IMG/VR virus record: IMGVR_UViG_3300030419_003768 | Span: 5,996-61,138 of that record | Strand: one strand, 5' to 3' | DNA from: a virus | Length of the DNA stretch: 55,143 bases | Shown here: one piece after another, positions 1 through 41,561 of the stretch | Numbering within the stretch: the first letter of the stretch is position 1 | How the letters are laid out: every line of letters begins with the position of its first letter | Program-made: the position numbers and the translations under genes | The notes under the pieces: generated by a model | Database searches by the model: none | Told to the model about the DNA's origin: nothing | Seen by the model: the letters and a program-made list of their open reading frames with translations, nothing else

Positions 1-3000
1 TCTATTGCAGATACCGAAGTAAAGAAACGTGGTTTAATCAAGGCATTTAATGAGTCATTAAACAACTCTGAAAACATATTAAGATACAGGGAAATTATAA
101 GAACTCTAGCAGAATCAGAGAATACAATAGAGTCACCAGTAAAAATAAGAGGACTAAGGAGAATCATATCTAACACTATAAGTGTGGCATCATCTCATAT
201 TAAACTACGAGGTATAGTTAGAACTATATCAGATACAATATCAATAGGATTGGCAGCCTTCCAAGGAGATGTATTCCAGTCAAATGTATTTGGTAGTGCA
301 TCATCAGAAGTAACCAAGGTATTAGGAAGAGTGAAGAATATTAACGAGTCTATATCTCTATCAGAAGCAAAGAATAGGGCTATGGGATTCGGAAAGACTA
401 TCAATGATACTGTAAGCATTTCAACTTCTGTTACACCACTTAGAGCATTAACAAGATTGGTATCAGAATCAATATCAATTCAAACATTTAGGCAAAGACT
501 TAGAGCAATAGCAAAGAGTGTTACAGATTCAGTGTCAATATCAACTACATCCAATACAATAAGAGGTAGGGTAAAGCGTGTAAATGAATCTGTTGAGGTA
601 ACAACAAAGAGAATATTCCAGTCTATATTCCAGTCAAACGTGTTCCAACAAGGTGCAGAGTATGTGAAATTAATGGGAAGAATAAGACTGGTAAACGAAA
701 CACAAAACGTGGTAGAAGGAAGAATAACTTTGATGAGTTTAAGAAGAGTATTTTCAGAGACAGTTCAGGCATCAGAAACTATAGTTAAACTAAGATCTAT
801 ATTAAGATTGATAACAGAGACAGAGAGAACACAAGAATCTCTTGTGAAGTTAATGTCAATGTTAAAGGTTGAAAATGAGTCAGTTTCTATCCAAACATTC
901 AGGGAAAAACTTAGAGTAATTAGAAGGGTTATTAATGAAACAGTACAGTATGCAGAACAGATTAACAAAGTACGAGGATTAAACAGAATAATAAATAACA
1001 CCATACAGTTATCTGTCTCATCATACACTGCAAGTGGTTTCATTAGATTACATACTGAAGCAGTTAATATTGCAGAAAACATAACAAGATTAAGAGGATT
1101 GTTTAGAGTCGTCAACAATACAGTACAATCTTCAGAGACATTAAGGAGGGCAGTAAGCAGAATATTCAGTGAATCTATAAGCATATCAGAGAATAAGGTA
1201 TTCTTAAGATCATTAATAAAACATGTAGTAGAGTCAATTTCAATACAAACATTCAGAGAGAAGTTACGTGCAGTTAGAAGGGTAATAAATGAGAGTGTCA
1301 ACTATGCAGAGACAGTTCCAAGACTTAGAGGATTGGGCAGAACCATTGATGAGACATTGAATATATCATTCTCATTCTCATGGACAAGAGAGTTACTTAG
1401 AAGTGTAGGCGAATCAGTTTCTATCCAAACATTCAGAGTACCTCCAAGAGTATTATTAAGAATAATAAATGAGACAATGAATATTGCAAGAACAAGATTG
1501 GGTACATTCCAGTCGAATGTATTCCAACAGAATGTATTCCAACAGGGATATGAAATTGCAATGGTAAGAGGATTGGGCAAGATTTACAATGAGAGCGTAA
1601 GTATATCAGAAGGATTTAGAAAAGCATTTAGTAAGGCATTTACAGAAACAGTCCGTATAAACGAAGCAACAAACTTTGCTAGAGAATTAATTAGACACTT
1701 GAATGAATCGGTATCAGTTCAAACATTCAGATTAAGAACAAGAGATCTAATCAAGTTGGTTGCAGAATCACTAGAAATTTCACATTCATTCATAAGACTA
1801 CAGGCAATAAGAAAGTTAGTAGCAGAGTCAATATCAGTACAAACATTCAGAGACAGATTAAGAGACATGTTACGAGTTGTATCAGAGTCTATAAGTATAT
1901 CTGATACAAGAGTTCCTAGAAGAGAATTAAGGAGACTAATTGCAGAGTCAATATCTGTTCAAACATTTAGAACAAGAGGAAGGATTTTAATAAGAATGAT
2001 AGATGAGACTGTCGGAATTTCAACAACAGTTAATACCATACGTGGTAGAATAAAACGTGTTGCAGAACAAATAAACGTAGGAGCACCAGTAATATTCCAG
2101 TCAATATACCAATCTAATGTATTCCAACAGGGTACTGAGTTTGTCAAATTAATGACAATGATAAGATTTAGAGATGAAACTCAAAGAGTGAACGAGTCGG
2201 TATTATCATACAAAGATATGTTGAGATATGTATCTGAAACAATACAGGCAAGTGAAGCGATAGTAAAACTAAGAGATATATTCAGAATAATAAACAATAC
2301 AGTACAAACAACCGAATCAATAATACGACTCAAGGTTATAATTAAATTAATTAATAATAGTGTAAGTGTAGCCGAGGGAATTGTGAGATGGAGAACATTA
2401 AGAAGAGTAATCAATAACACAGTAGAGGCTGCAGAATCCATCATAAGATTAAGAGTATTAACCAGATTGATTAACGAGTCGGTATCTATCCAAACATTCA
2501 GAGATAGACTTAGAGCAATAAGAAGAGTAATAGATGAGACAGTACAATATAGCGAATCATTGAGAATGAGTTGGACAAGATCATTTACAGATACAGTATC
2601 AGTGTCAGAAACACAAATACACCTAAGTACAATGTTGAGAAATATAGCAGAGACATTAAGTGTAGGAGAAACAAGAGTTAGAGTTAGAGGAATGTTGAGA
2701 GTTATCAACAACTCATTGAATATAAGTGAGTCTATCATAAGACTCAGAGGAATATTTAGAATAATAAACAACTCATTATCATTATCTGAGTCTATCATAA
2801 GATGGAGAGTATTAGGAAGAGTTATTGATGAGTCGGTATCAGTTCAAACATTCAGAGAAAAACTTAGAGTTATTAAGAGAATACTTAATGAGAGTGTAAG
2901 CATACCAGAGACAAGAATACGAATAAGAAACATATTGAGAAGAGTATCAGAGTCAGTCAATTATGCTGAAGTTATATTACCAGTTAGAGGATTATTCAGA

Positions 3001-3474
3001 GTTATCAATGACACCGTAAGAGTATCAGAATCAATAGGAAGATTGAGAGAGATATTCAGAGTTATCAATGAGTCATTATCAATACCTGAATTAATAAAGA
3101 ACTTCAAACATATCATACCAAAGGTTAATGAGTCAATCAGTGTGGCAACAACATTCGACACTGCTATGGGTAAGGTATATGTGATATTGGAAAACATATC
3201 TATCCAAACATTCAGAGAACCAATAAGAACATTATTGAGAGTTGTTACTGAATCAGTGAGTGTAGTAGAATCACTAGCAAAGAACCTACAGGATGGTGCT
3301 GTGAGAATCACAAGAAATATAAGAGTTAACTTGAGAGGAAGAGACGGTAAAGTGAGTAACAGAGCAAATAATGCAAGAACAAATATGAGAGACAAAGACG
3401 TAAACATTCATGACAGAAACAATAATAGTAAAAGTTATAAGCGTGGAGGCTCAGTAAAAGGTGAAGACAGATGA
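1..3474 (+). CDS. Giant repeat tail-fibre protein, 5' partial
   Basis: The frame is open from base 1, so the gene is cut by the window edge; the GTG at 184 is internal, because the same repeat already runs through bases 1-183. About 1,157 residues are visible. Most of the chain is a 20-residue (60-nt) repeat with consensus like RLRxIxRVINESVSIxEx, roughly fifty copies, many ending in the variant SIQTFR or SVQTFR. Four short islands with FQSNVFQ motifs interrupt it near 258-300, 610-655, 1500-1550 and 2092-2135. The last ~60 residues are basic and Asn-rich. Such regular beta-type repeats suit an elongated receptor-binding fibre (inference). If the window is circular this is the C-terminal part of the protein starting at 53872. 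Confidence 0.7.
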   Translation, partial: SIADTEVKKRGLIKAFNESLNNSENILRYREIIRTLAESENTIESPVKIRGLRRIISNTISVASSHIKLRGIVRTISDTISIGLAAFQGDVFQSNVFGSASSEVTKVLGRVKNINESISLSEAKNRAMGFGKTINDTVSISTSVTPLRALTRLVSESISIQTFRQRLRAIAKSVTDSVSISTTSNTIRGRVKRVNESVEVTTKRIFQSIFQSNVFQQGAEYVKLMGRIRLVNETQNVVEGRITLMSLRRVFSETVQASETIVKLRSILRLITETERTQESLVKLMSMLKVENESVSIQTFREKLRVIRRVINETVQYAEQINKVRGLNRIINNTIQLSVSSYTASGFIRLHTEAVNIAENITRLRGLFRVVNNTVQSSETLRRAVSRIFSESISISENKVFLRSLIKHVVESISIQTFREKLRAVRRVINESVNYAETVPRLRGLGRTIDETLNISFSFSWTRELLRSVGESVSIQTFRVPPRVLLRIINETMNIARTRLGTFQSNVFQQNVFQQGYEIAMVRGLGKIYNESVSISEGFRKAFSKAFTETVRINEATNFARELIRHLNESVSVQTFRLRTRDLIKLVAESLEISHSFIRLQAIRKLVAESISVQTFRDRLRDMLRVVSESISISDTRVPRRELRRLIAESISVQTFRTRGRILIRMIDETVGISTTVNTIRGRIKRVAEQINVGAPVIFQSIYQSNVFQQGTEFVKLMTMIRFRDETQRVNESVLSYKDMLRYVSETIQASEAIVKLRDIFRIINNTVQTTESIIRLKVIIKLINNSVSVAEGIVRWRTLRRVINNTVEAAESIIRLRVLTRLINESVSIQTFRDRLRAIRRVIDETVQYSESLRMSWTRSFTDTVSVSETQIHLSTMLRNIAETLSVGETRVRVRGMLRVINNSLNISESIIRLRGIFRIINNSLSLSESIIRWRVLGRVIDESVSVQTFREKLRVIKRILNESVSIPETRIRIRNILRRVSESVNYAEVILPVRGLFRVINDTVRVSESIGRLREIFRVINESLSIPELIKNFKHIIPKVNESISVATTFDTAMGKVYVILENISIQTFREPIRTLLRVVTESVSVVESLAKNLQDGAVRITRNIRVNLRGRDGKVSNRANNARTNMRDKDVNIHDRNNNSKSYKRGGSVKGEDR

Positions 3475-5664: not shown

Positions 5665-6186
5665 ATGGCTGACGAGGAAATATTCAAGATAAAGCCACTT
5701 GACAAAAATGCTACAAAAGTTGTCGTAAATGGACAAAAAACAGTTTCTCCATTTAATTCTGCAAAGCATTTAAAAACTGCAAACATCCCTGCATTATGTG
5801 ACCAGTGTGTCTATAGGTCTATTGAAGACGGTGGCAATGGTAAATGTCCAAAGTATGAGAAGGGTGCTCTCTGTGCTATAAGAAAAGATTTTATTGAAAT
5901 GATAAATCAGTTAGACACAAGAGATCCTGAAGCAGTAAAAACCATGTTGGATATGTTAGCAAAACTCAGTTTTGAGAATGTACTCATGGCTCTCACAGAA
6001 TCAAAGTTTGATGGAAACATACCTGATAGAAATACAAAATCAGAGATTAACACATTACTTAAAATCATATCAACCATAGGTGAGATTTCAAATAAGATAG
6101 TGGTAAGTGAGGAAAAGAGATATGATAAGAAAGGAGATATTGAATCCATATTTAGACAGATTAAGGCACAGAAAACAGGTGATTAG
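5665..6186 (+). CDS. Putative terminase small subunit
   Basis: 173 residues directly upstream of the large terminase; the stop abuts its ATG. An N-terminal metal-binding segment (CDQC ... CPKYEKGALC) is followed by a helical C-terminal half rich in Leu/Ile/Lys, compatible with an oligomeric DNA-recognition subunit. Start chosen at ATG 5665 because a TTTAAATA box lies 28 nt upstream; in-frame TTG 5644 and ATG 5656 fall between box and start. The function rests on position, since small terminases diverge widely. Confidence 0.5.
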   Translation: MADEEIFKIKPLDKNATKVVVNGQKTVSPFNSAKHLKTANIPALCDQCVYRSIEDGGNGKCPKYEKGALCAIRKDFIEMINQLDTRDPEAVKTMLDMLAKLSFENVLMALTESKFDGNIPDRNTKSEINTLLKIISTIGEISNKIVVSEEKRYDKKGDIESIFRQIKAQKTGD

Positions 6187-7569
6187 ATGGGTCAACCAGA
6201 GAAAGCCATAGTCAAAGAGAGACAGAATTTTATGCAGAGTATAGTAAACTGTGTAAAATCACCTAGTAAATTCAGTGAGATATTTCTGAACCACAAATTA
6301 TTTGATTATAATCAAGAGTATGTTGATTGTATGGAGAGGTTTATAGTATATAGGTCAGGAAGACAGGTGGGTAAAACCATGTCAACTGCAGTTAAAACAG
6401 TACACTTTGCGTTCTTTGCACCATTGTTATCCGATACTGTCAAGAATGAATGTGTGATAGTTATCGCTGCACCTACACAAAATCAGGCTAGTATCATGTT
6501 TGATAGAATTAGAAGTTTGGTAATTAAGAATGAGTTTCTACAAGGATATGTTGTAAGAAATACACAAACAGAATTGTGGTTAAACTTCTTAGATAATTCT
6601 GGTATGAGTAAAATAATTACAAGGGCTACTGGAGAAACAGGTACAGGATTAAGAGGTTATTCGCCACATGTAATTATAGCTGACGAATGTTCTTTCATTA
6701 AGACAGATATACTTAGGGCTTTCTTACCTTCTGGTATGGCAACACAAGCAAAAGTTTGGCTTACATCTACTCCTTTCAGTAAGGCAGGATATTTCTATGA
6801 GGCATGTCAAAATGCACGACCTAAAAACCCAGAGGGAATGTGGAGAGAGTTTCATGTTAAATCAATACAGAACCCACTAATTAAACAAGACCCTACATTT
6901 ATTGAAGAGATTAAAAGATTAACAAGAGAAGAATATACACAAGAGGTAGAAGGAGAGTTCCTAGATATTGGTGATGCTCTCATACCAAACAGCTTGATAA
7001 CAGAAGCCATATCCGATGGAAGACCTAGAGGAAATGTAAGATATTATATGGGAGTTGACGTTGCAAGAACTGGTAGAGATGAGACAGTTTATACTGTGAT
7101 AAAAGTAGATGATGATGACGTTGTATTTGTAGAAAGTGTTGAAGCAGAAAGTCAATCTAATGTCGTAGAGGTGGCAGGAAAGATACAGGATATGGTAAGA
7201 GATTATAGAATAGAAACAGTATTCATAGATGAGACTGGATTAGGTGGTGGTCTTGTTGACTTATGCAGAGAGAGGAGAGTTCCTACAAGGGGTGTCATTT
7301 TCTCATTACAAGAGAAGGCAGATATGTATAAGAGTTTGAGATTATTATTTGAGAATCATAAGATAAAACTGAAACAGGTAAACAAATTAGTCTATCAATT
7401 ATCTTATCTAAGAAGAGAATATACTGAGACTGGACTCATGAAAATCAAATCAGATGAGCATGATGACTATCCTGATAGCCTTGTTTTAGCATGTAGAGCA
7501 GTATCAGCAGGAGAAGGATGGCATGTAGTTGATGTCGGAAAAGCTCTTGGTAAGGCTTTATTTGGTTAA
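6187..7569 (+). CDS. terL: Terminase large subunit (packaging ATPase/nuclease)
   Basis: 460 residues. The ATPase domain has Walker A SGRQVGKT at about 57-64 and Walker B VIIADE at 162-167. The RNase H-like nuclease domain begins with GVDVARTGRDE near 289, giving the first catalytic aspartate D291, with a further acidic motif FIDETGLGGG and a final DDYPDSL aspartate. Length is normal for the family. The enzyme pumps DNA into the prohead and cuts concatemers. It follows the putative small subunit with no gap. Confidence 0.95.
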   Translation: MGQPEKAIVKERQNFMQSIVNCVKSPSKFSEIFLNHKLFDYNQEYVDCMERFIVYRSGRQVGKTMSTAVKTVHFAFFAPLLSDTVKNECVIVIAAPTQNQASIMFDRIRSLVIKNEFLQGYVVRNTQTELWLNFLDNSGMSKIITRATGETGTGLRGYSPHVIIADECSFIKTDILRAFLPSGMATQAKVWLTSTPFSKAGYFYEACQNARPKNPEGMWREFHVKSIQNPLIKQDPTFIEEIKRLTREEYTQEVEGEFLDIGDALIPNSLITEAISDGRPRGNVRYYMGVDVARTGRDETVYTVIKVDDDDVVFVESVEAESQSNVVEVAGKIQDMVRDYRIETVFIDETGLGGGLVDLCRERRVPTRGVIFSLQEKADMYKSLRLLFENHKIKLKQVNKLVYQLSYLRREYTETGLMKIKSDEHDDYPDSLVLACRAVSAGEGWHVVDVGKALGKALFG

Positions 7570-14674: not shown

Positions 14675-14992
14675 ATGAATTTTAACGCAGGAATTAAATC
14701 AATATCAATAAGCAAGGAAGCCAAGAAAGTATTTGAGGAGCTTGATTCTATAAGACCAAAACATATATCGTTTAGTTTAATGTTAGCTATAGCAGCAGAT
14801 GAATATGTCAAACAACATAACAAAGGTCTAGTAAAACTAGATGATTTTAATGAGGATGACAGAGTAACAGTACCAAAGTTCTTTTCAGATATGAATACAT
14901 GGATTAATTATGTCACTGGAATAGATGATAAAGATAAGAGTGACATCAAGGAAAGATTACTACAACTTCAGAACCTAATGGATAGAGTATAA
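14675..14992 (+). CDS. Unknown 105-aa helical protein, MCM partner candidate
   Basis: Begins with a beta-like ISISKEAKKVFEEL segment that could be ribbon-helix-helix-like, then helices. It shares a TAATG junction with mcm, so translation is coupled. A loader or regulator of MCM is a reasonable guess from position only. Confidence 0.5.
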   Translation: MNFNAGIKSISISKEAKKVFEELDSIRPKHISFSLMLAIAADEYVKQHNKGLVKLDDFNEDDRVTVPKFFSDMNTWINYVTGIDDKDKSDIKERLLQLQNLMDRV

Positions 14993-16962
14993 TGCAGTTC
15001 ACAGAGTCTCATATAGTATCACATCTAAAAGATATATTCAGTTCATCAAAATATAATGATATAATATCACGACTAAGACCAGAGAGCACATTCACATTGA
15101 ATGTAATGGAAGATGATTTGTACACATTCTTTACTGATTCAAAAGAAGAGTTTAAAGAACATGTAAAATCTGCCATCTTTTCTATGAAGGAGGAGCAGTA
15201 TGGTAGTGGTGTTGATGTGAGATATGATTTTAGAAATTTAAAAATTAACTTAGTATCAAATCATGTAATAAAAATGCACGATTTAAATGCAAAGAATCAT
15301 GAGAGAAATATTGTAACTTTTGATTGTGAAATAATAGCAGTTGAAAGAGAGAAATCATATGTTAAACAAGCAACAGGAATATGTCCTCAATGTTTCAAAG
15401 AGATGGATATAAAATCTGATTATGATAGAGATATAACAAAAACAATATGCCCAAACCTTACATGTAAAAATCAGAAGGTAAATATAGACACAAAGAATTT
15501 AGTTACAGATAACATACAGTATGTATATCTACAAGAGTTATTATCTGATGCAAAGAATAACTCACCAATAATTATGAGGGCAGTGACAACAGATGAGTTA
15601 TCAGGTACGTTATTTGTAGGACAGAAGAAAAGAATATCTGGTATGTATAAATCAGTGATAGGAAAGGATAAGAACAAAGACAACATAAACGAGATAACAA
15701 TAGAGGTTTTTGCAGCTAAGGATTTGGAGAAAAAAAATGATGTGTGTTTAACTTCTGAGGAAATACAAGAGTTAGTAAAGGAATCAAAACGAGATGGCTT
15801 TATGGATGATGTGGTAGGTAGTTTTGCACCATTGATTATAGGATATAAGGATATAAAATTCTCAATCTTACTAATGTTAGCAGGAGGATATTCCAAAGTA
15901 AAACGTGGAGATATAAACGTACTGTTAGTTGGCGATCCGTCACTTGCAAAGTCAGAATTATTAAAAGAGTGTTCAAAGGTATCATCAAAATCTATGTACA
16001 CATCTGGCAGAGGAGCCAGTGCTGCAGGACTTACAATAGGTCTAGTCAAGATGGACAACGGAAGTCAAGTAGCACAAGCAGGAGTACTACCATTATGTAA
16101 TGAAGGACATGCTTGCATAGATGAGTTTGATAAAATGAATCCTAATGATAGAAGTGCAATGCACGAAGGTATGGAACAACAAACTGTCAGCATAGCAAAG
16201 GCAGGATTTAGAATGACACTTCCTGCAAAGACTAGCATACTTGCTGCAGCAAACCCAAAATATGGAAAGTATGATACAGAGATGTCACTAATAGATAACA
16301 TAGATATACCAGTACCTCTCGTCTCTAGATTCGATTTGATATGGTTAATCAGAGATAAGGTTGACAAATCTCAAGACATAATAAAAGCAGAGCACGTTTT
16401 AGAAACCTTCACAGGTGAGGACATGTCAAACAAGGTATTCCTAGACAGAAACAAACTTACCTCATACATTAACTTTGTAAAAGAAATTAAACCTACCATA
16501 AGTGATGAAGCAAAGTCAAAACTATCAGAAATTTACCAAAAAATGAGGTCACTTTCTGCAAGTAATGAATCACTTGCCGTGGGTGTTAGACAACTGGAAG
16601 CGTTAGCAAGGTTATCAACTGCACACGCAAAGATGTTGTTCAAGAACGAGGTTGACGTAACAGATGTCACTGTTGTAGAAGGACTCTTGAAGAGTATGTA
16701 TGAATCACTCGGAGTAAAAATGGACAGTGGTTTTACACAGGCTACACTAGTCTTGGGAAAGAAAGAAACAAAAGAACAAACTGCAACAAGAGTATGGAAA
16801 GAATGTGAGAATGAAAGAAAGTCAGTAAAGTATAGCGATTTTATTAAAAAATTATCAGAGACAGGACTGTATGATGAGTCATCTGCGAAATCATTATTCG
16901 CACAATGGGAAATGAAGTGCTTGATAAAACTAAATGGTGATGGAAGATACCAAAAAATATAG
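14992..16962 (+). CDS. mcm: MCM replicative helicase
   Basis: 656 residues. The N-terminal half carries a zinc ribbon (CPQC at 131-134 and CPNLTC about 20 residues later). The AAA+ core has the MCM-type Walker A GDPSLAKSE starting at 314, Walker B ACIDEFDK with D377-E378, sensor 1 AAANPKYG, and arginine finger SRFD. The C-terminal ~80 residues resemble the archaeal MCM winged helix. It unwinds DNA at the fork as a hexamer. With no viral polymerase visible, it presumably recruits the host replisome to viral DNA. Confidence 0.95.
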   Translation: MQFTESHIVSHLKDIFSSSKYNDIISRLRPESTFTLNVMEDDLYTFFTDSKEEFKEHVKSAIFSMKEEQYGSGVDVRYDFRNLKINLVSNHVIKMHDLNAKNHERNIVTFDCEIIAVEREKSYVKQATGICPQCFKEMDIKSDYDRDITKTICPNLTCKNQKVNIDTKNLVTDNIQYVYLQELLSDAKNNSPIIMRAVTTDELSGTLFVGQKKRISGMYKSVIGKDKNKDNINEITIEVFAAKDLEKKNDVCLTSEEIQELVKESKRDGFMDDVVGSFAPLIIGYKDIKFSILLMLAGGYSKVKRGDINVLLVGDPSLAKSELLKECSKVSSKSMYTSGRGASAAGLTIGLVKMDNGSQVAQAGVLPLCNEGHACIDEFDKMNPNDRSAMHEGMEQQTVSIAKAGFRMTLPAKTSILAAANPKYGKYDTEMSLIDNIDIPVPLVSRFDLIWLIRDKVDKSQDIIKAEHVLETFTGEDMSNKVFLDRNKLTSYINFVKEIKPTISDEAKSKLSEIYQKMRSLSASNESLAVGVRQLEALARLSTAHAKMLFKNEVDVTDVTVVEGLLKSMYESLGVKMDSGFTQATLVLGKKETKEQTATRVWKECENERKSVKYSDFIKKLSETGLYDESSAKSLFAQWEMKCLIKLNGDGRYQKI

Positions 16963-19227: not shown

Positions 19228-19452
19228 ATGGACTTAAAGACATGTGGATGTGATGAGAGAGGTATTTTCTACCCAGATAGTGGGAGAATAATAATATACC
19301 TAAATAATCATGAAAATTTGGAGGATATTTTGGGTACAATAACCCATGAATTAGTCCATAAATGTATTCATGATTTTGATGAGACTTTAGATGATGACCA
19401 AGAGGAAAAAGTTATTTATAATATGGCTTGGGCAACAGAATCAATAGTGTGA
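19228..19452 (+). CDS. Mini-zincin protein with HELVH motif
   Basis: 74 residues. ITHELVHKCIHDF gives the HExxH zinc motif and EEKVIYNM about 20 residues on could supply a glutamate ligand, as in ImmA/SprT-like peptidases, but the protein is very short. Isolated plus-strand gene between minus-strand units; its end overlaps the cyclotransferase-like gene by 12 nt. Confidence 0.5.
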   Translation: MDLKTCGCDERGIFYPDSGRIIIYLNNHENLEDILGTITHELVHKCIHDFDETLDDDQEEKVIYNMAWATESIV

Positions 19453-19743
19453 GTCCATATAGGTTTCACATTCATGACCATTCATTGTTTTCACCTTAAT
19501 TCTTCGATAAAACTTTGTTTCATATGTATCAAGTCTCTTTAAATCCTTTTCAGTGACTTCAAAGACCTTACCTTTCGCAATTTCATCTTTATCTCGGTAA
19601 ACAGAAGGAAAAGAGGTTAGAAAAGAGTGCGTATCGACTCGAAAGCCACGCACACTGTCTTCTTCTCCCTCTATTTGTTTATTGAGTACTCTTTCTCGTA
19701 CAGTGTCGTCTAATAACGAACCATACACAAAAAGCTTACTCAT
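19441..19743 (-). CDS. Gamma-glutamylcyclotransferase (AIG2)-like protein
   Basis: 100 residues. The family hallmarks are an N-terminal FVYGSL loop (6-11), a GxxxxV(E/T) strand in AKGKVFEV, and a catalytic-type glutamate in the DTYETKFYRR segment. The family cleaves gamma-glutamyl amines or removes isopeptide-linked groups. Amidoligases and class II amidotransferases, both encoded at 26484-28623, are known genomic partners of AIG2-like proteins. Confidence 0.75.
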   Translation of the reverse strand: MSKLFVYGSLLDDTVRERVLNKQIEGEEDSVRGFRVDTHSFLTSFPSVYRDKDEIAKGKVFEVTEKDLKRLDTYETKFYRRIKVKTMNGHECETYMDSHY

Positions 19744-19846
19744 TTGAGTGCACTAACTCCTTAACTGCATCTGTGCATTGATTACACAAGTCTAATTGAT
19801 CATATTTCTTAGTTTCTTTGTCATTAAGACAAATATGGCATAACAT
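19736..19846 (-). CDS. Zinc-ribbon microprotein, 36 aa
   Basis: CHIC and CNQC pairs separated by 15 residues. Overlaps the start of the cyclotransferase gene by 8 nt. A TTTAATAAT box about 27 nt before the ATG starts this two-gene unit. Confidence 0.5.
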   Translation of the reverse strand: MLCHICLNDKETKKYDQLDLCNQCTDAVKELVHSNE

Positions 19847-28624: not shown

Positions 28625-29230
28625 CTAATCTAACCTCCACTCTTGGTTTACATCAATTTCTTCCACCACTCCTGAAAACTCTTCAGGCTCTTTAAATAAA
28701 TCATTAAGACGAGTACCATCCTCATCCTGTTTAATGTTATCATACCATCTCTTCATGGATTTAATTGATTTTATAATATCTCTTTTATATGTGTTGAAGA
28801 ATGATGGTGGCATTGGGTGATTTACATAATATCGCTGACAACCAATACGTCTCATATTACGTGTGAATATATTATTAGTTGCAGCATGTGCTTCATTATC
28901 TTTACCATCAAATTCTAATTGCCATAAAATACTGGAACTACCCCAACCAAATGAATCTTGATTGCCTGTAGTATAACACATATCAATGACTGCCTTGACA
29001 GCAGGCGTGGCTATCAAGAATACATCGTATGCCTGTTCCTCTTTTTGAGGAGCGAATACAAATAACTCAAATCCTTCCTTCTTACGATGACGAGACAAAC
29101 CCATAGTTTGCCTAATACCATTTATATCTTTCATGGTAAATGTCTTGGTATTATCTCGATTTACATAACTATCAAGATAATCGTTATATAAACTGCGTGC
29201 GAGTAATCTGGGTACATGGTTTGAATACAT
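28625..29230 (-). CDS. Unknown 201-aa protein upstream of the amidoligase
   Basis: One nt from the amidoligase gene, so in the same operon. Features: FELFVFAPQK strand, Trp-rich WGSSSILWQLEFDG, a basic middle and an acidic C-terminus. No family recognised; it could be a third component or target of the ligase system. Confidence 0.55.
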   Translation of the reverse strand: MYSNHVPRLLARSLYNDYLDSYVNRDNTKTFTMKDINGIRQTMGLSRHRKKEGFELFVFAPQKEEQAYDVFLIATPAVKAVIDMCYTTGNQDSFGWGSSSILWQLEFDGKDNEAHAATNNIFTRNMRRIGCQRYYVNHPMPPSFFNTYKRDIIKSIKSMKRWYDNIKQDEDGTRLNDLFKEPEEFSGVVEEIDVNQEWRLD

Positions 29231-29245
29231 GATTAAAAAATAGGC

Positions 29246-29404
29246 TTACCTATCGGTAGCCTTGATGGGAAGATATTGGTTAGAAGCATCTAACCTACGG
29301 TTTGCATTATCATCACGAAGCACTGACCAATAGTCATGCTCGCAACGATATTTATACCACTGTGCATACCTCTTACAGTAGTCACAATCACATAAATTGT
29401 TCAT
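29246..29404 (-). CDS. Cys-rich microprotein, 52 aa
   Basis: N-terminal CDCDYC and a later RCEH could bind zinc. It leads the amidoligase operon. TATA-like boxes lie at about 29413-29422 and 29465-29475 on the minus strand. Confidence 0.45.
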   Translation of the reverse strand: MNNLCDCDYCKRYAQWYKYRCEHDYWSVLRDDNANRRLDASNQYLPIKATDR

Positions 29405-29508
29405 TCTAATGGTATATAAATGGTTAAATTGATTCGTAAGTGCTTAGCATACGCTGCTGCGACCTACGCTATATATACCTTTCGGTTAAAAAAGTTAATA
29501 CAATTAGC

Positions 29509-29566
29509 AAAAAAATAGGTAGGCGTGGCAGTTGGTCAAATTATAATTCCGATTTGCTACCACGCC
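29509..29566 (-). terminator. Stem plus T7 terminator
   Basis: GGCGTGG at 29522-29528 pairs with CCACGCC at 29560-29566; on the minus strand TTTTTTT follows the stem. Confidence 0.5.
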
Positions 29567-29848
29567 AGTTTTTGCAGTTTGATGACTGATAGTTATAGCG
29601 TTAGCCTTTCCTACCAGTCATGTCGTTAGTGCACCCTATAAATCATAATCGTGGCGTATTCACCCTTTCGGTGTGTTGTGCCTATTATCCACTATTACTC
29701 ATAGTTGCCACTCTCTAAAGTGACGACCCATTGTGTCTCGGCTATAGTTCACACTCATGGCGACCGTTAGAGCAGTCGCTATGCGTAATCGCTACGTGCC
29801 TCGATTCAAGGTCAGAAACACCAGTGGAGAACCACTCACTGTTTCTAC
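29509..29848 (-). ncRNA. Candidate ~340-nt structured noncoding RNA
   Basis: Minus strand. A TATA-like box (29866-29875) would start RNA near 29846. The 5' end folds into a nested hairpin (AGAAACA/TGTTTCT around AGTGG/CCACT, 29814-29846). Further hairpins: GCGAC/GTCGC (29760-29779), CACT/AGTG (29709-29722), and a GAAA-loop hairpin (29661-29675). The 3' end is a GGCGTGG/CCACGCC stem (29522-29566) followed by seven T (29509-29515). No RNase P, SRP or tRNA signature was found. Strand and ends are inferred. Confidence 0.5.
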
Positions 29849-29940
29849 CCTCCCTATACTGCCATGATATATAACACTTCATGCGTATTTCCACAGTGTA
29901 CCACGCCTGAGTTAGCGAGCCAAGTGCTCATGGAAAAAAA

Positions 29941-29973
29941 TTGAAAATTGAAAAAAGGGGGGCTACAAACCGA
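29941..29973 (-). terminator. Oligo-T tract
   Basis: On the minus strand CCCCCC is followed by seven T and two further T-rich runs separated by CAATT repeats; a plausible stop for transcripts entering from the 30163-30600 genes. Confidence 0.35.
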
Positions 29974-30162
29974 AAAAAATTAGATACAAATCAGATACAA
30001 GTGTTGAAAAACCAGTTACTAAACCAGAACCATAAACCATCTATACATTCTAACATGAACACACACTGCAAGTAGTATTCTTCTTATCCTTTATATATGT
30101 GTTGGAGGATAGACAGCCTAAGCATAGAGCGAAGGTTTTGCGAGGGCGATAAAAGAAGTTAA

Positions 30163-30300
30163 TTAATCTTCGCAACGTCTTATACATTCCTTAATTACCC
30201 TAACACGATACTCATTAGGATTCGGTTCTTTTTCTACACGTTCCAAGACTCTCTTAAAGTCCTTTAAATGTGCTTGCCGTTCTTTCTTATCTTCGTACAT
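30163..30300 (-). CDS. Unknown charged protein, 45 aa
   Basis: Single amphipathic helix rich in Lys, Arg and Glu with two C-terminal cysteines. Overlaps the previous gene by 14 nt. Confidence 0.45.
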   Translation of the reverse strand: MYEDKKERQAHLKDFKRVLERVEKEPNPNEYRVRVIKECIRRCED

Positions 30301-30397
30301 GAAAATCCTCAATATGACACAAACATCTACAGTGCTTATCGCATTTTGCGTTTACACACGAAGTGCACTTTATCCTAGTATTTGAAAAATGAATCAT
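30287..30397 (-). CDS. Cys-rich microprotein, 36 aa
   Basis: ATGA overlap with the 68-aa gene. CTSC, CDKHC and CRCLCH give six cysteines and two histidines in 20 residues; the CxCxCH ending matches the microprotein at 4747. Confidence 0.5.
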   Translation of the reverse strand: MIHFSNTRIKCTSCVNAKCDKHCRCLCHIEDFHVRR

Positions 30398-30600
30398 TGT
30401 ACATCACTCTGCTTCTTAAATTGGGTCATACTCTCCTTTGCCTTCTCCTTGTTTTCTGCAGTAACTCTCTCCTTGACTTCTGACATATAAGTCCCCTGCA
30501 CTCGAAATAAACATCTTGCCAGTCCATTCTTAGAATGTTCTCCTAATGTCTCCTGACATGCAATACATATAATCTTATCAATTTGCTTTGCACCTAACAT
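30394..30600 (-). CDS. Small zinc-binding protein, 68 aa
   Basis: CIACQETLGEH and a later RCLF provide a possible zinc site; the rest is a charged helix. TTTATATATAAC lies upstream at promoter distance. First of three overlapping genes. Confidence 0.5.
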   Translation of the reverse strand: MLGAKQIDKIICIACQETLGEHSKNGLARCLFRVQGTYMSEVKERVTAENKEKAKESMTQFKKQSDVQ

Positions 30601-32839: not shown

Positions 32840-34762
32840 ATGGGATTTACAGATACCTTAAAGGGTGTTTTTAGACTTTCTAACAAATCATATACTGAAA
32901 CTACAACTAGACCTAGTGTAGCACAGCCATATATGAGCACCGATACAGGTGCAAAACTACCAATTTTCCCATTTCCTCTCATTATGATTTATGAGTTAGC
33001 AGAGAATATTGATGCACTTAGAATTCCTATTGAGACTATTAACCGTGAAATGTTCAAAAATGGGTTTGAAATAGTTGAAAGATTCAAATACAAATGTAAT
33101 AATTGTTCAAAAGAGTTCCAATATGCTCCACAAATAGAAGTTGAAGGAGAAAGTAAAGAAGATGCAAAGAAAATACAATGTGATTCATGTCAAAGTTATG
33201 ATTTGAAAAGACCTATACCAGAACACAGAAAAACACTTGAAGTTTTAATGTCAAAACCAGTAAATGGAAACAATCAAACATTAGAAGATGTTACAAGACA
33301 ATTAGAACGTGATTTGGAAATTGCTGACAATGCTTACTTACTTTTACTAAAAAATTACTTTATTGATGACCTAACAGGTGAAATAGATGCAGAAAAAACC
33401 GAAATTAAAGAATTATTAAGAGTTGACCCTCCACAGGTTGCTATGATAGCAGATAGTGATGGTAGAATAGGTTATGATGATAAAAGACAGAAAATCTTTG
33501 TTTGTCCACGATTTGAACATAGAGATAAGAGATTATACACTGAAAGATGTGATAGATGTAACGCAAAGGCAATTAAAGCAATTATTGAAGTAAACTCCGT
33601 ATATTCAGTAGGTGTACCACACCCAAAACGTGTAATTTATGGTGAAGGTGAGGTTATTTGGAAAGCAGGAAAGTATAGACCTTCATTGATTTATGGTTAT
33701 TCTCCTATTTACGCTGTATGGTCAAAGGCTATGTCATTGTCTCATATGGATGAATATGTTCGTAAATACTTTGATAAAATGCGACCTCCAAGAGGTTTAT
33801 TGGTTATTGCATCAAGAAACTATGAAACGTTTAGAAAGTCATGGGATGCTTTAGAACAGAAAGCAATAGAAGACCCATACATGATACATCCACTTATGGT
33901 AGAATCCGACAAAGGTGGAAAGAACATGGCAAACTGGATAGACTTTACTGGTTCATTAGAAGAATTACAATTTATTGAAGTAAGAAAAGAATTAAGACAA
34001 ATTATTGGTGCAGTGTTTGGAGTATTGCCACTTTACTATGGAGAGATGGTAGGTGGATGGTCACAAGAAGGTTTACAAGTTACAATTACAAACAGAGCTG
34101 TTAAGTGGGGACAAGATGTTTTATTCAAATCATTCCTCAAAAAATTTGCAGAGATTATGGGAGTTGATGATTGGGATATTAAATTAGTACAAGGAGAAGA
34201 GAATGATAAACTAGCAGAATTACAAAGAGATGGTGTGGAAATACAAAATATGGCAATGTTACAACAGATGGGATTTGAAATAGAAAGAACACATACAGGA
34301 GACTTTAACGTATCAAAAGAAGCTAACTTAGATATGATGAATGAATCAATGGATAATAGTGGAATTAATGGTAGAGGAAGAAGTACTGCAGCACCAGTTG
34401 AAAATAGACAATCATTTTCAGGTATGCCTGCACAATCAAGACCTTCTGATATGGGAGGAATTGCACAGGGTTCACCAAGTACTGGAACAGGTACATCTCT
34501 ATCACAAAAGAATTACCCAGATGGAATTACACCAAGTAATTTCCAAGTTGTAAAAAACACATTACAAACTGCAGTTGATTATGGTTGGAAGAAAACAAAA
34601 ACAGTTGATGAGTTACGAAAATCAACAGGTATGACAGTTAGACAAGCAAGAGATGTTGTAAAGGCAGAATTTGAAGGCATGAGACAATGGGAAGAAGAAG
34701 AGCCTAAACAAATAAATAAGAGTAAAAAATACGTTAATGAGGAAGAAGAAGATGACGACTAG
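32840..34762 (+). CDS. Portal protein with inserted zinc ribbons
   Basis: 640 residues. The order of segments (an N-terminal IETINREMFKNGFEI, a middle YSPIYAVWSKAMSLSHMDEY, and GAVFGVLPLYYGE followed by a helical C-terminal stretch) is that of phage portals, the dodecameric DNA gate at the head vertex. Unusual are two zinc-ribbon-like insertions: C86/C89 with C114/C117, and C222 with C237/C240. The last ~140 residues are Gly/Ser/Gln-rich, then acidic. Starts the late gene block, with CTTTATATGGG just upstream. Confidence 0.85.
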   Translation: MGFTDTLKGVFRLSNKSYTETTTRPSVAQPYMSTDTGAKLPIFPFPLIMIYELAENIDALRIPIETINREMFKNGFEIVERFKYKCNNCSKEFQYAPQIEVEGESKEDAKKIQCDSCQSYDLKRPIPEHRKTLEVLMSKPVNGNNQTLEDVTRQLERDLEIADNAYLLLLKNYFIDDLTGEIDAEKTEIKELLRVDPPQVAMIADSDGRIGYDDKRQKIFVCPRFEHRDKRLYTERCDRCNAKAIKAIIEVNSVYSVGVPHPKRVIYGEGEVIWKAGKYRPSLIYGYSPIYAVWSKAMSLSHMDEYVRKYFDKMRPPRGLLVIASRNYETFRKSWDALEQKAIEDPYMIHPLMVESDKGGKNMANWIDFTGSLEELQFIEVRKELRQIIGAVFGVLPLYYGEMVGGWSQEGLQVTITNRAVKWGQDVLFKSFLKKFAEIMGVDDWDIKLVQGEENDKLAELQRDGVEIQNMAMLQQMGFEIERTHTGDFNVSKEANLDMMNESMDNSGINGRGRSTAAPVENRQSFSGMPAQSRPSDMGGIAQGSPSTGTGTSLSQKNYPDGITPSNFQVVKNTLQTAVDYGWKKTKTVDELRKSTGMTVRQARDVVKAEFEGMRQWEEEEPKQINKSKKYVNEEEEDDD

Positions 34763-40997: not shown

Positions 40998-41561
40998 ATG
41001 GCACAAATACCAGCTCTACTACCAAAAGAAGTAGAGATTCAAAGATTGAAGAAAATCTGGTTAGTAGTCATTGCTATGGGTTCTGTTGCAGCATCCGTAG
41101 AAGTTGACAACTTTGTAGATGGTTCTCTTCATCAAACATCCATAAGAGATAGTGCTTTCACTCCTGCTCACTGGTGGCTATATTCTCATTTTGTAGCTTT
41201 GCCTTTGGGATGGGGATTTGTTGCAATCTATGATAGGAAAGTTCCTATACTTAGAGGAAGAAACAACTCTATGAACACTGGTCTTAAGATGACAATACTA
41301 GGATATTTGGCTACAATGTTTACCATAGGAGTCAATGAAATGTGGCACTTTTGGTTTGTAGAAGAAATATTCGCAGTACCTAATCACTGGATGTTCAACA
41401 TGGGCGTTGTAGTAGCTTTCATGGGAGCATTAGCATATGTCGTAAGAGTATATGCTAGATTGGTTGAACTTGGTGCAGAATCACCATCTGATAACCCATA
41501 TGTTGCAGAAATGTATAAACAGGCTTTAGAAGGCAAACTCTACAGTAGATCCATACCTTAA
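40998..41561 (+). CDS. amoC: Ammonia monooxygenase subunit C (auxiliary metabolic gene)
   Basis: 187 residues, the full length of thaumarchaeal AmoC, and reading almost exactly like the Nitrosopumilus protein from MAQ to the LYSRSIP end (recalled, not aligned). Several membrane helices are evident, such as 20-33, 60-78, 95-112 and 133-150. N113, H117 and H130 have the 4- and 13-residue spacing of the PmoC Asp/His/His copper site, with Asn in place of Asp. AmoC is part of the membrane enzyme oxidising ammonia to hydroxylamine. No amoA or amoB is present, so the product must join host subunits. Viral amoC genes have been reported in marine thaumarchaeal viruses. Confidence 0.93.
   Translation: MAQIPALLPKEVEIQRLKKIWLVVIAMGSVAASVEVDNFVDGSLHQTSIRDSAFTPAHWWLYSHFVALPLGWGFVAIYDRKVPILRGRNNSMNTGLKMTILGYLATMFTIGVNEMWHFWFVEEIFAVPNHWMFNMGVVVAFMGALAYVVRVYARLVELGAESPSDNPYVAEMYKQALEGKLYSRSIP

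Follow-up and report, generated by a model that had tools for sequence, protein, structure and literature searches.

GOLLD is a large virus-encoded structured RNA with a conserved 3′ region and a less conserved 5′ region, and ROOL is a large structured RNA of phages and prophages; the function of either is unknown, and both form RNA-only cages (PMC12286853). The locus described here lies in a window of 55,143 nucleotides, the whole stretch of DNA that we analysed (IMG/VR record IMGVR_UViG_3300030419_003768, positions 5,996 to 61,138). Its marker genes (portal, large terminase, MCM helicase and amoC) show that it comes from a tailed archaeal virus; its amoC is 95-96% identical to that of Candidatus Nitrosopelagicus, and the phage records distantly related to its portal belong to haloarchaeal tailed viruses. 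Judged by its genes, the window is from a tailed virus of marine ammonia-oxidising archaea. It also encodes a 1096-aa protein (184-3474, plus strand) with many degenerate ESVSIQTFR-like repeats, perhaps a virion fibre.

The RNA predicted in this window resembles GOLLD in pattern only, in that a 3′ hairpin alone can be aligned across the window and three relatives (L003, L004 and L014) next to a variable 5′ region. It differs in length (340-750 nt, whereas GOLLD often exceeds 800), in its surroundings (GOLLD often lies near tRNA genes, whereas no tRNA is nearby here) and in its association with an archaeal virus, a TATA promoter and a different motif. Like ROOL, it is a large structured viral RNA, but it has no Rfam match and no tRNA island, and its sequence is unrelated. 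The pRNA of phi29 is another virus-encoded structural RNA of a tailed virus, but it has no sequence match to the window RNA. We know of no need for an RNA in large terminases of the Terminase_6 type, one of which the window virus has.

An earlier note, made from the letters of the window, had proposed a new large viral RNA in the style of ornate phage RNAs, fitting none of RNase P, SRP or tRNA. This view is borne out. A covariance search against Rfam gave no credible family match at either gathering or permissive thresholds, and neither Rfam nor ARAGORN found an RNase P RNA, SRP RNA, tRNA or tmRNA; ARAGORN detected no tRNA anywhere in the window. The RNA is thus in the style of GOLLD and ROOL without being a member of either, and its homologues covary. 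The Rfam models of GOLLD, ROOL and OLE matched nothing in the window or its relatives; for GOLLD, no match reached the gathering score in the window and six relatives, and none appeared at 29200-30400 of the window with E up to 10. A Tombus_3_IV match in L009 (21.7 bits, under the 33-bit cut-off) was taken as chance. A DNA search of INPHARED phages gave no match, inspection by eye found no kink-turn, C/D-box or RNase P core, and literature searches of incomplete coverage returned no comparable large structured RNA from archaeal viruses.

Limits, composition and predicted fold of the locus

The earlier note had picked out the locus as gene-free and GC-richer than its AT-rich genome. Both descriptions hold: the overlapping ORFs are chance ones of at most 50 aa, and the GC fraction is 0.45 as against about 0.34-0.35 for the genome, positions 29701-29850 being the highest-GC 150-nt piece among 550 sampled from the window. 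The RNA is present once in the whole record of 61,138 bases. When its folding was compared with that of shuffled sequence, the minus strand reached -112 kcal/mol against -84.5 +/- 4.5 for the shuffles, none of 100 being as good (z -6.06); the plus strand gave a z of -3.11. In a coarse scan of the whole window, with six shuffles per piece, a few coding stretches (19601 minus, 29201 minus and 27001 plus) had similar or stronger local fold scores. Fold energy by itself is therefore no proof of an RNA, and the comparative evidence decides. The strongest piece in that scan lay at 19560-19800 on the minus strand, within the coding sequence of a small gene (100 aa, 19441-19743 minus); the local fold there is very stable, with a z of -4.6.

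Table 1. Positions of the predicted RNA gene, its parts, its promoter region and the marker genes in the window (minus-strand features are numbered on the strand as given).
Feature	Position	Strand	Basis
Structured noncoding RNA gene (predicted)	29509..29848	minus	fold, no ORF, syntenic structured homologues, compensatory changes
RNA ends	5′ probably ~29848-29843; 3′ at U7, 29515-29509	minus	predicted
P1, 5′ hairpin (GAAACA...UGUUUC)	29814..29846, approximate	minus	MFE and centroid
P2, long irregular hairpin	29725..29813, approximate	minus	MFE and centroid
P3, hairpin (GUCACUUUAGAGAGUGGC)	29707..29724, approximate	minus	MFE and centroid
P4, hairpin, CACC-GAAA-GGGUG tip at 29673-29661	29640..29705, approximate	minus	MFE and centroid
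3′ hairpin, AUGACU-GGUAG / GAAAG (stem) UAUAA / CUAUC-AGUCAU	29582..29621	minus	covariation, model R1
Invariant internal loop	UAUAA 3′ strand 29593..29597; GAAAG 5′ strand 29610-29606	minus	alignment
Terminal hairpin GGCGUGGUAG...CUGCCACGCC then U7, terminator-like 3′ end	29509..29566	minus	sequence and fold
TATA box TTATATAT, RNA promoter (predicted)	29867..29874	minus	read directly; homologous loci
Upstream cis block: TTGTA repeats (29983-30002), T-run, CCATGAGCACTTGGCTCGC...GGTACACTGTGGAAAT	29885..30002	minus	nhmmer
Portal	32840-34762		
Large terminase, Terminase_6-type	6187-7569		
MCM helicase	14992-16962		
amoC	40998-41561		

The fold model of the minus strand contains six helices, in 5′ to 3′ order a 5′ hairpin, a long irregular one, a short one, a GAAA-tipped one, the 3′ hairpin with its large internal loop, and the terminal hairpin followed by U7. 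P1 to P4 of the window are unproven predictions from one sequence. Some details of the earlier note needed adjusting. The nested hairpin at one end is there, with a modelled stem of 10 bp rather than 12 (29566-29557/29531-29522, one G-U) and a nested 5-bp stem. Its two candidate GAAA loops fared differently: CACCGAAAGGGUG (29673-29661) is a real hairpin tip, whereas GGAAAG (29611-29606) is no loop tip and instead supplies a strand of the internal loop that is best conserved. The T7 behind the final stem (plus-strand A7, and U7 in the RNA) and the TATA box at the other end were both read directly from the letters. L003 and L004 have terminal stems of unrelated sequence, with T runs behind them, at the corresponding place. 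The usual spacing between TATA box and start in archaea is 22-27 nt, which would put the RNA start at the position given in Table 1, the same end that the earlier note had chosen.

The word GGCGTGG occurs four times in the window (29004, 29522, 29560 and 29901; expected count 0.4), each time within 0.9 kb around the RNA, and words similar to GGCGTGG/GTGCCTA turn up often where the DNA of relatives is noncoding.

Covariation among relatives at the same slot

Relatives were fetched with the portal protein, giving 80 viral loci, and by further scans. Eight distinct syntenic RNA genes of about 340-750 nt stand behind one conserved promoter block: those of the window, L003, L004, L014 (equal to L016 and L017), L022, L009, L019 (equal to L020 and L021) and L100 (equal to L101, L110 and L111). 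All eight segments are ORF-poor and GC-richer, and in other relatives the slot is taken by a protein gene, which can lie on either strand. For the six segments tested, the sense-strand z was -6.6, -3.7, -3.0, -2.5, -2.1 and -5.0, and the sense fold was stronger than the antisense fold in all except L004, where antisense was slightly better. The longest RNAs, in L019 (3220-3972, minus) and L100 (3331-3873), contain repeated self-complementary ACGTACGT stretches, which, if placed in loops, could pair copy to copy.

Five of the eight (the window, L003, L004, L014 and, as a weak match, the diverged L022) share the 3′ hairpin GGUAG-GAAA-(stem)-UAUAA-CURUC. UAUAA is identical in the first four, while the outer stem differs in each, reading GACU/AGUC, AUAC/GUAU, AGUA/UACU and CUC/GAG, respectively. 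In alignment A4, 97.2% of cells were paired against 77.2% in shuffled versions, 8 cells had changed on both sides against 2.4, with such two-sided changes in four of nine pairs, and the covariation score was 0.741 against 0.219. On all three measures none of 500 shuffles was as high, and slid versions collapsed. Compensatory changes in homologues, whose absence the earlier note had named as evidence against an RNA, are thus found in the outer stem of the 3′ hairpin. Moreover, the G-U pair at columns 6-36 is invariant and columns 7-35 alternate between U-A and U-G, so that the pairing is possible only in a minus-strand RNA; on the other strand these would be A-C mismatches.

The hairpin resembles the UAA/GAN internal-loop motif, its 3′ UAA facing a 5′ GAA beside a G-C pair. 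The likeness is by sequence alone, and the flanks GGUAG/CURUC are specific to the family of the window RNA.

A covariance model, R1, was built from the window, L003, L004 and L014. Over the 1.0 Mb searched, it matched only the RNA slot at E <1e-7 and recovered each of the six records, its own training sequences and the L014 copies included, with E values from 1e-8 to 1e-11. The diverged 3′ hairpin of L022 was found at the right place with 11.6 bits (E 0.015 for 491 nt). R1 with filters off detected no convincing 3′ motif in L009, L019 or L100, so the homology of these three rests on synteny and the tree. Among 2.9 M viral contigs, the sequence motif gave seven matches, five at the RNA slot and two (L085 and L087) within coding genes of unrelated phages, the latter taken as chance. 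An exact search for the 3′-end pattern gave no match, and a scan with the 201-aa neighbour protein yielded no relatives.

Between the window and its nearest relatives, nothing beyond the 3′ hairpin could be aligned; the L003/L004 alignment gave a z of +0.9, and the window, L003 and L004 were not alignable with one another outside the hairpin. Further covariation came from two other pairs. L014 and L022 are about 62% identical and alignable over much of their length, and their consensus fold has 49 pairs, 12 of them compensated and none broken, with a z against column shuffles of -2.2 over the whole length and -3.2 over the 3′ half alone; in one 5-bp stem most of the sequence has changed, while the GGACGANAGUGAAUGAA loop that it encloses is identical. 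A hairpin is also common to L019 and L100, whose 3′ alignment has three compensated pairs (z -4.9). Motif scans for both sub-families matched known contigs only.

That the fold is kept in the best-conserved part while almost all the sequence changes suggests a working RNA. As defined by these alignments, the RNA is the type of a new family, with the 3′ hairpin GGUAG-GAAA..UAUAA-CURUC, a covarying outer stem and an invariant inner loop.

Upstream block, descent and alternative readings

A TATA-like element occupies the corresponding place in nearly all homologous loci, ahead of RNA or protein genes. An nhmmer profile of about 110 nt from just upstream of the RNA found the upstream block in about 50 loci, and a later search added more; no other noncoding element around the RNA locus was seen to be so well conserved. 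One match, L169, was set aside as chance, in what by eye is an apparent Geobacillus-type phage. Since the block precedes the RNA in some loci and proteins in others, it is used by the RNA but lies outside it, and for the same reason we dropped the idea that it forms the 5′ part of the RNA. The block is probably a promoter/operator or an origin-like element. Its TTGTA repeats are spaced 11 or 22-23 bp apart, resembling iterons or operator sites. In several relatives, a block-related piece stands inverted near or downstream of the portal gene; related pieces occur in L004 (12826-12877), L029, L036, L039, L040 and L079. The block is possibly a replication origin or a master regulator site of these viruses. 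On the other side of the RNA, positions 29405-29500 hold another TATA-like site, behind it a short inverted repeat, and finally the TATA box that belongs to the next gene. Several carriers have this arrangement at the corresponding place (examined in L003, L004, L009, L014 and L022), which may represent an operator or a small RNA.

In the portal tree, the seven RNA carriers included (L100 was left out) fall on one side of a single branch with support 82/70, that is, moderate clade support. RNA presence takes one change on this tree as against 6.5 with shuffled labels, and the tree contains RNA-free sisters (L011, L015 and L037). A single gain followed by vertical descent would be the simplest reading. 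In these sisters (L011 4200-4930, minus), a protein gene lies directly behind the upstream block, and part of its protein resembles, by eye, the protein after the RNA in L019 and L100; the arrangement looks as though an insertion had brought the RNA gene in between the promoter and the protein gene.

The window and L004 are 92% identical over 195 nt of p52 and 74% identical over 149 nt of the block, and between these flanks little more than the 3′ hairpin is alignable. By this comparison the RNA is changing much faster than its surroundings. The RNA was absent, by model and by DNA search, from 250 genomes of the Nitrosopumilaceae, the host family, and as a positive control the model search does find it in viral records. 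The A1 profile likewise had no match in the 250 host-family genomes, and a portal search for proviruses in genome contigs found none.

Taken together, the conserved TATA block, strong fold, lack of ORFs, compensatory changes, restriction to one clade and absence from hosts argue for a real RNA gene, one that is virus-specific, fast-evolving and new to Rfam. We give a probability of about 0.8 to an independent gene whose product is a structured noncoding RNA acting in trans, transcribed by itself from the TATA box, ending at the terminal hairpin and U7, and accumulating in folded form; the part that the data support is a structured-RNA gene on the sense strand.

The best-surviving alternative would make the segment a long, structured leader at the 5′ end of the minus-strand operon that follows it (p52, p201 and p374), in the manner of a riboswitch or an attenuator. 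The p52 gene (29404-29246) does lie directly downstream on the same strand, and the hairpin and U7 at the end of the RNA are attenuator-like. Such a leader is nonetheless unlikely, because the gene after the RNA varies between viruses (52, 214, 64, 193 and 132 aa) and p52 in the window is preceded by a separate TATA box, ATTTATATA, which lies about 20 nt ahead of the ATG; several hundred nucleotides of hypervariable structure with no conserved ligand-like core are also unlike known leaders. Somewhat less probable again is an element acting as DNA, in which hairpins and block would form a replication origin or a packaging or recombination site and the fold would be incidental. The iteron-like repeats and the conservation of the block would suit it, but most relatives have the block without the RNA, which means that the block does not need the structured part, and both the stronger minus-strand folding in five of six segments and the strand-specific G-U and U-A/U-G pairs fit an RNA. 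Chance structure in a variable intergenic spacer, or the remnant of a lost gene, would explain why sequence is barely conserved between close relatives and why some coding stretches match the fold scores, but is highly improbable given compensatory changes in the 3′ hairpin, L014/L022 and L019/L100, raised GC without ORFs in eight of eight segments, and carriers that form a single clade.

Proposed role and meaning

As an independent RNA gene, the locus would be transcribed alone from its own TATA box into a transcript that ends at the terminal hairpin and U7, accumulates as a folded RNA and acts in trans, with a fast-changing multi-helix 5′ body joined to the 3′ hairpin. An invariant internal loop within a freely changing stem looks like a place where a protein or a tertiary partner docks: GAAAG/UAUAA between GGUAG/CURUC may dock a protein, another part of the RNA or, as in GOLLD and ROOL, another copy. 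The most likely use of the RNA would be as a scaffold or a decoy that acts on the machinery of the host during infection.

That the RNA has diverged so extremely while its flanks diverge slowly would suit a part in conflict with the host or between viruses; this is our leading guess, a weak and speculative one. A little more doubtful is the fuller proposal that these RNAs are the first family known from archaeal viruses of large, ornate RNAs that act in trans. The effector would then be an RNA rather than a protein, would block host defence or competing viruses and would have hyper-diversified under conflict, its 5′ body being swappable and its 3′ docking hairpin conserved.

Large structured viral RNAs such as GOLLD and ROOL have been described from bacterial phages, and here the carriers appear to be archaeal viruses. 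Their hosts would be ammonia-oxidising archaea, among the most abundant cells of the sea, whose amoC these viruses already carry. Why the RNA has been rewritten while its flanks are conserved is itself a testable question, and since the RNA gene was apparently gained once, the RNA-free sisters may serve as natural controls for the function of ornate viral RNAs.
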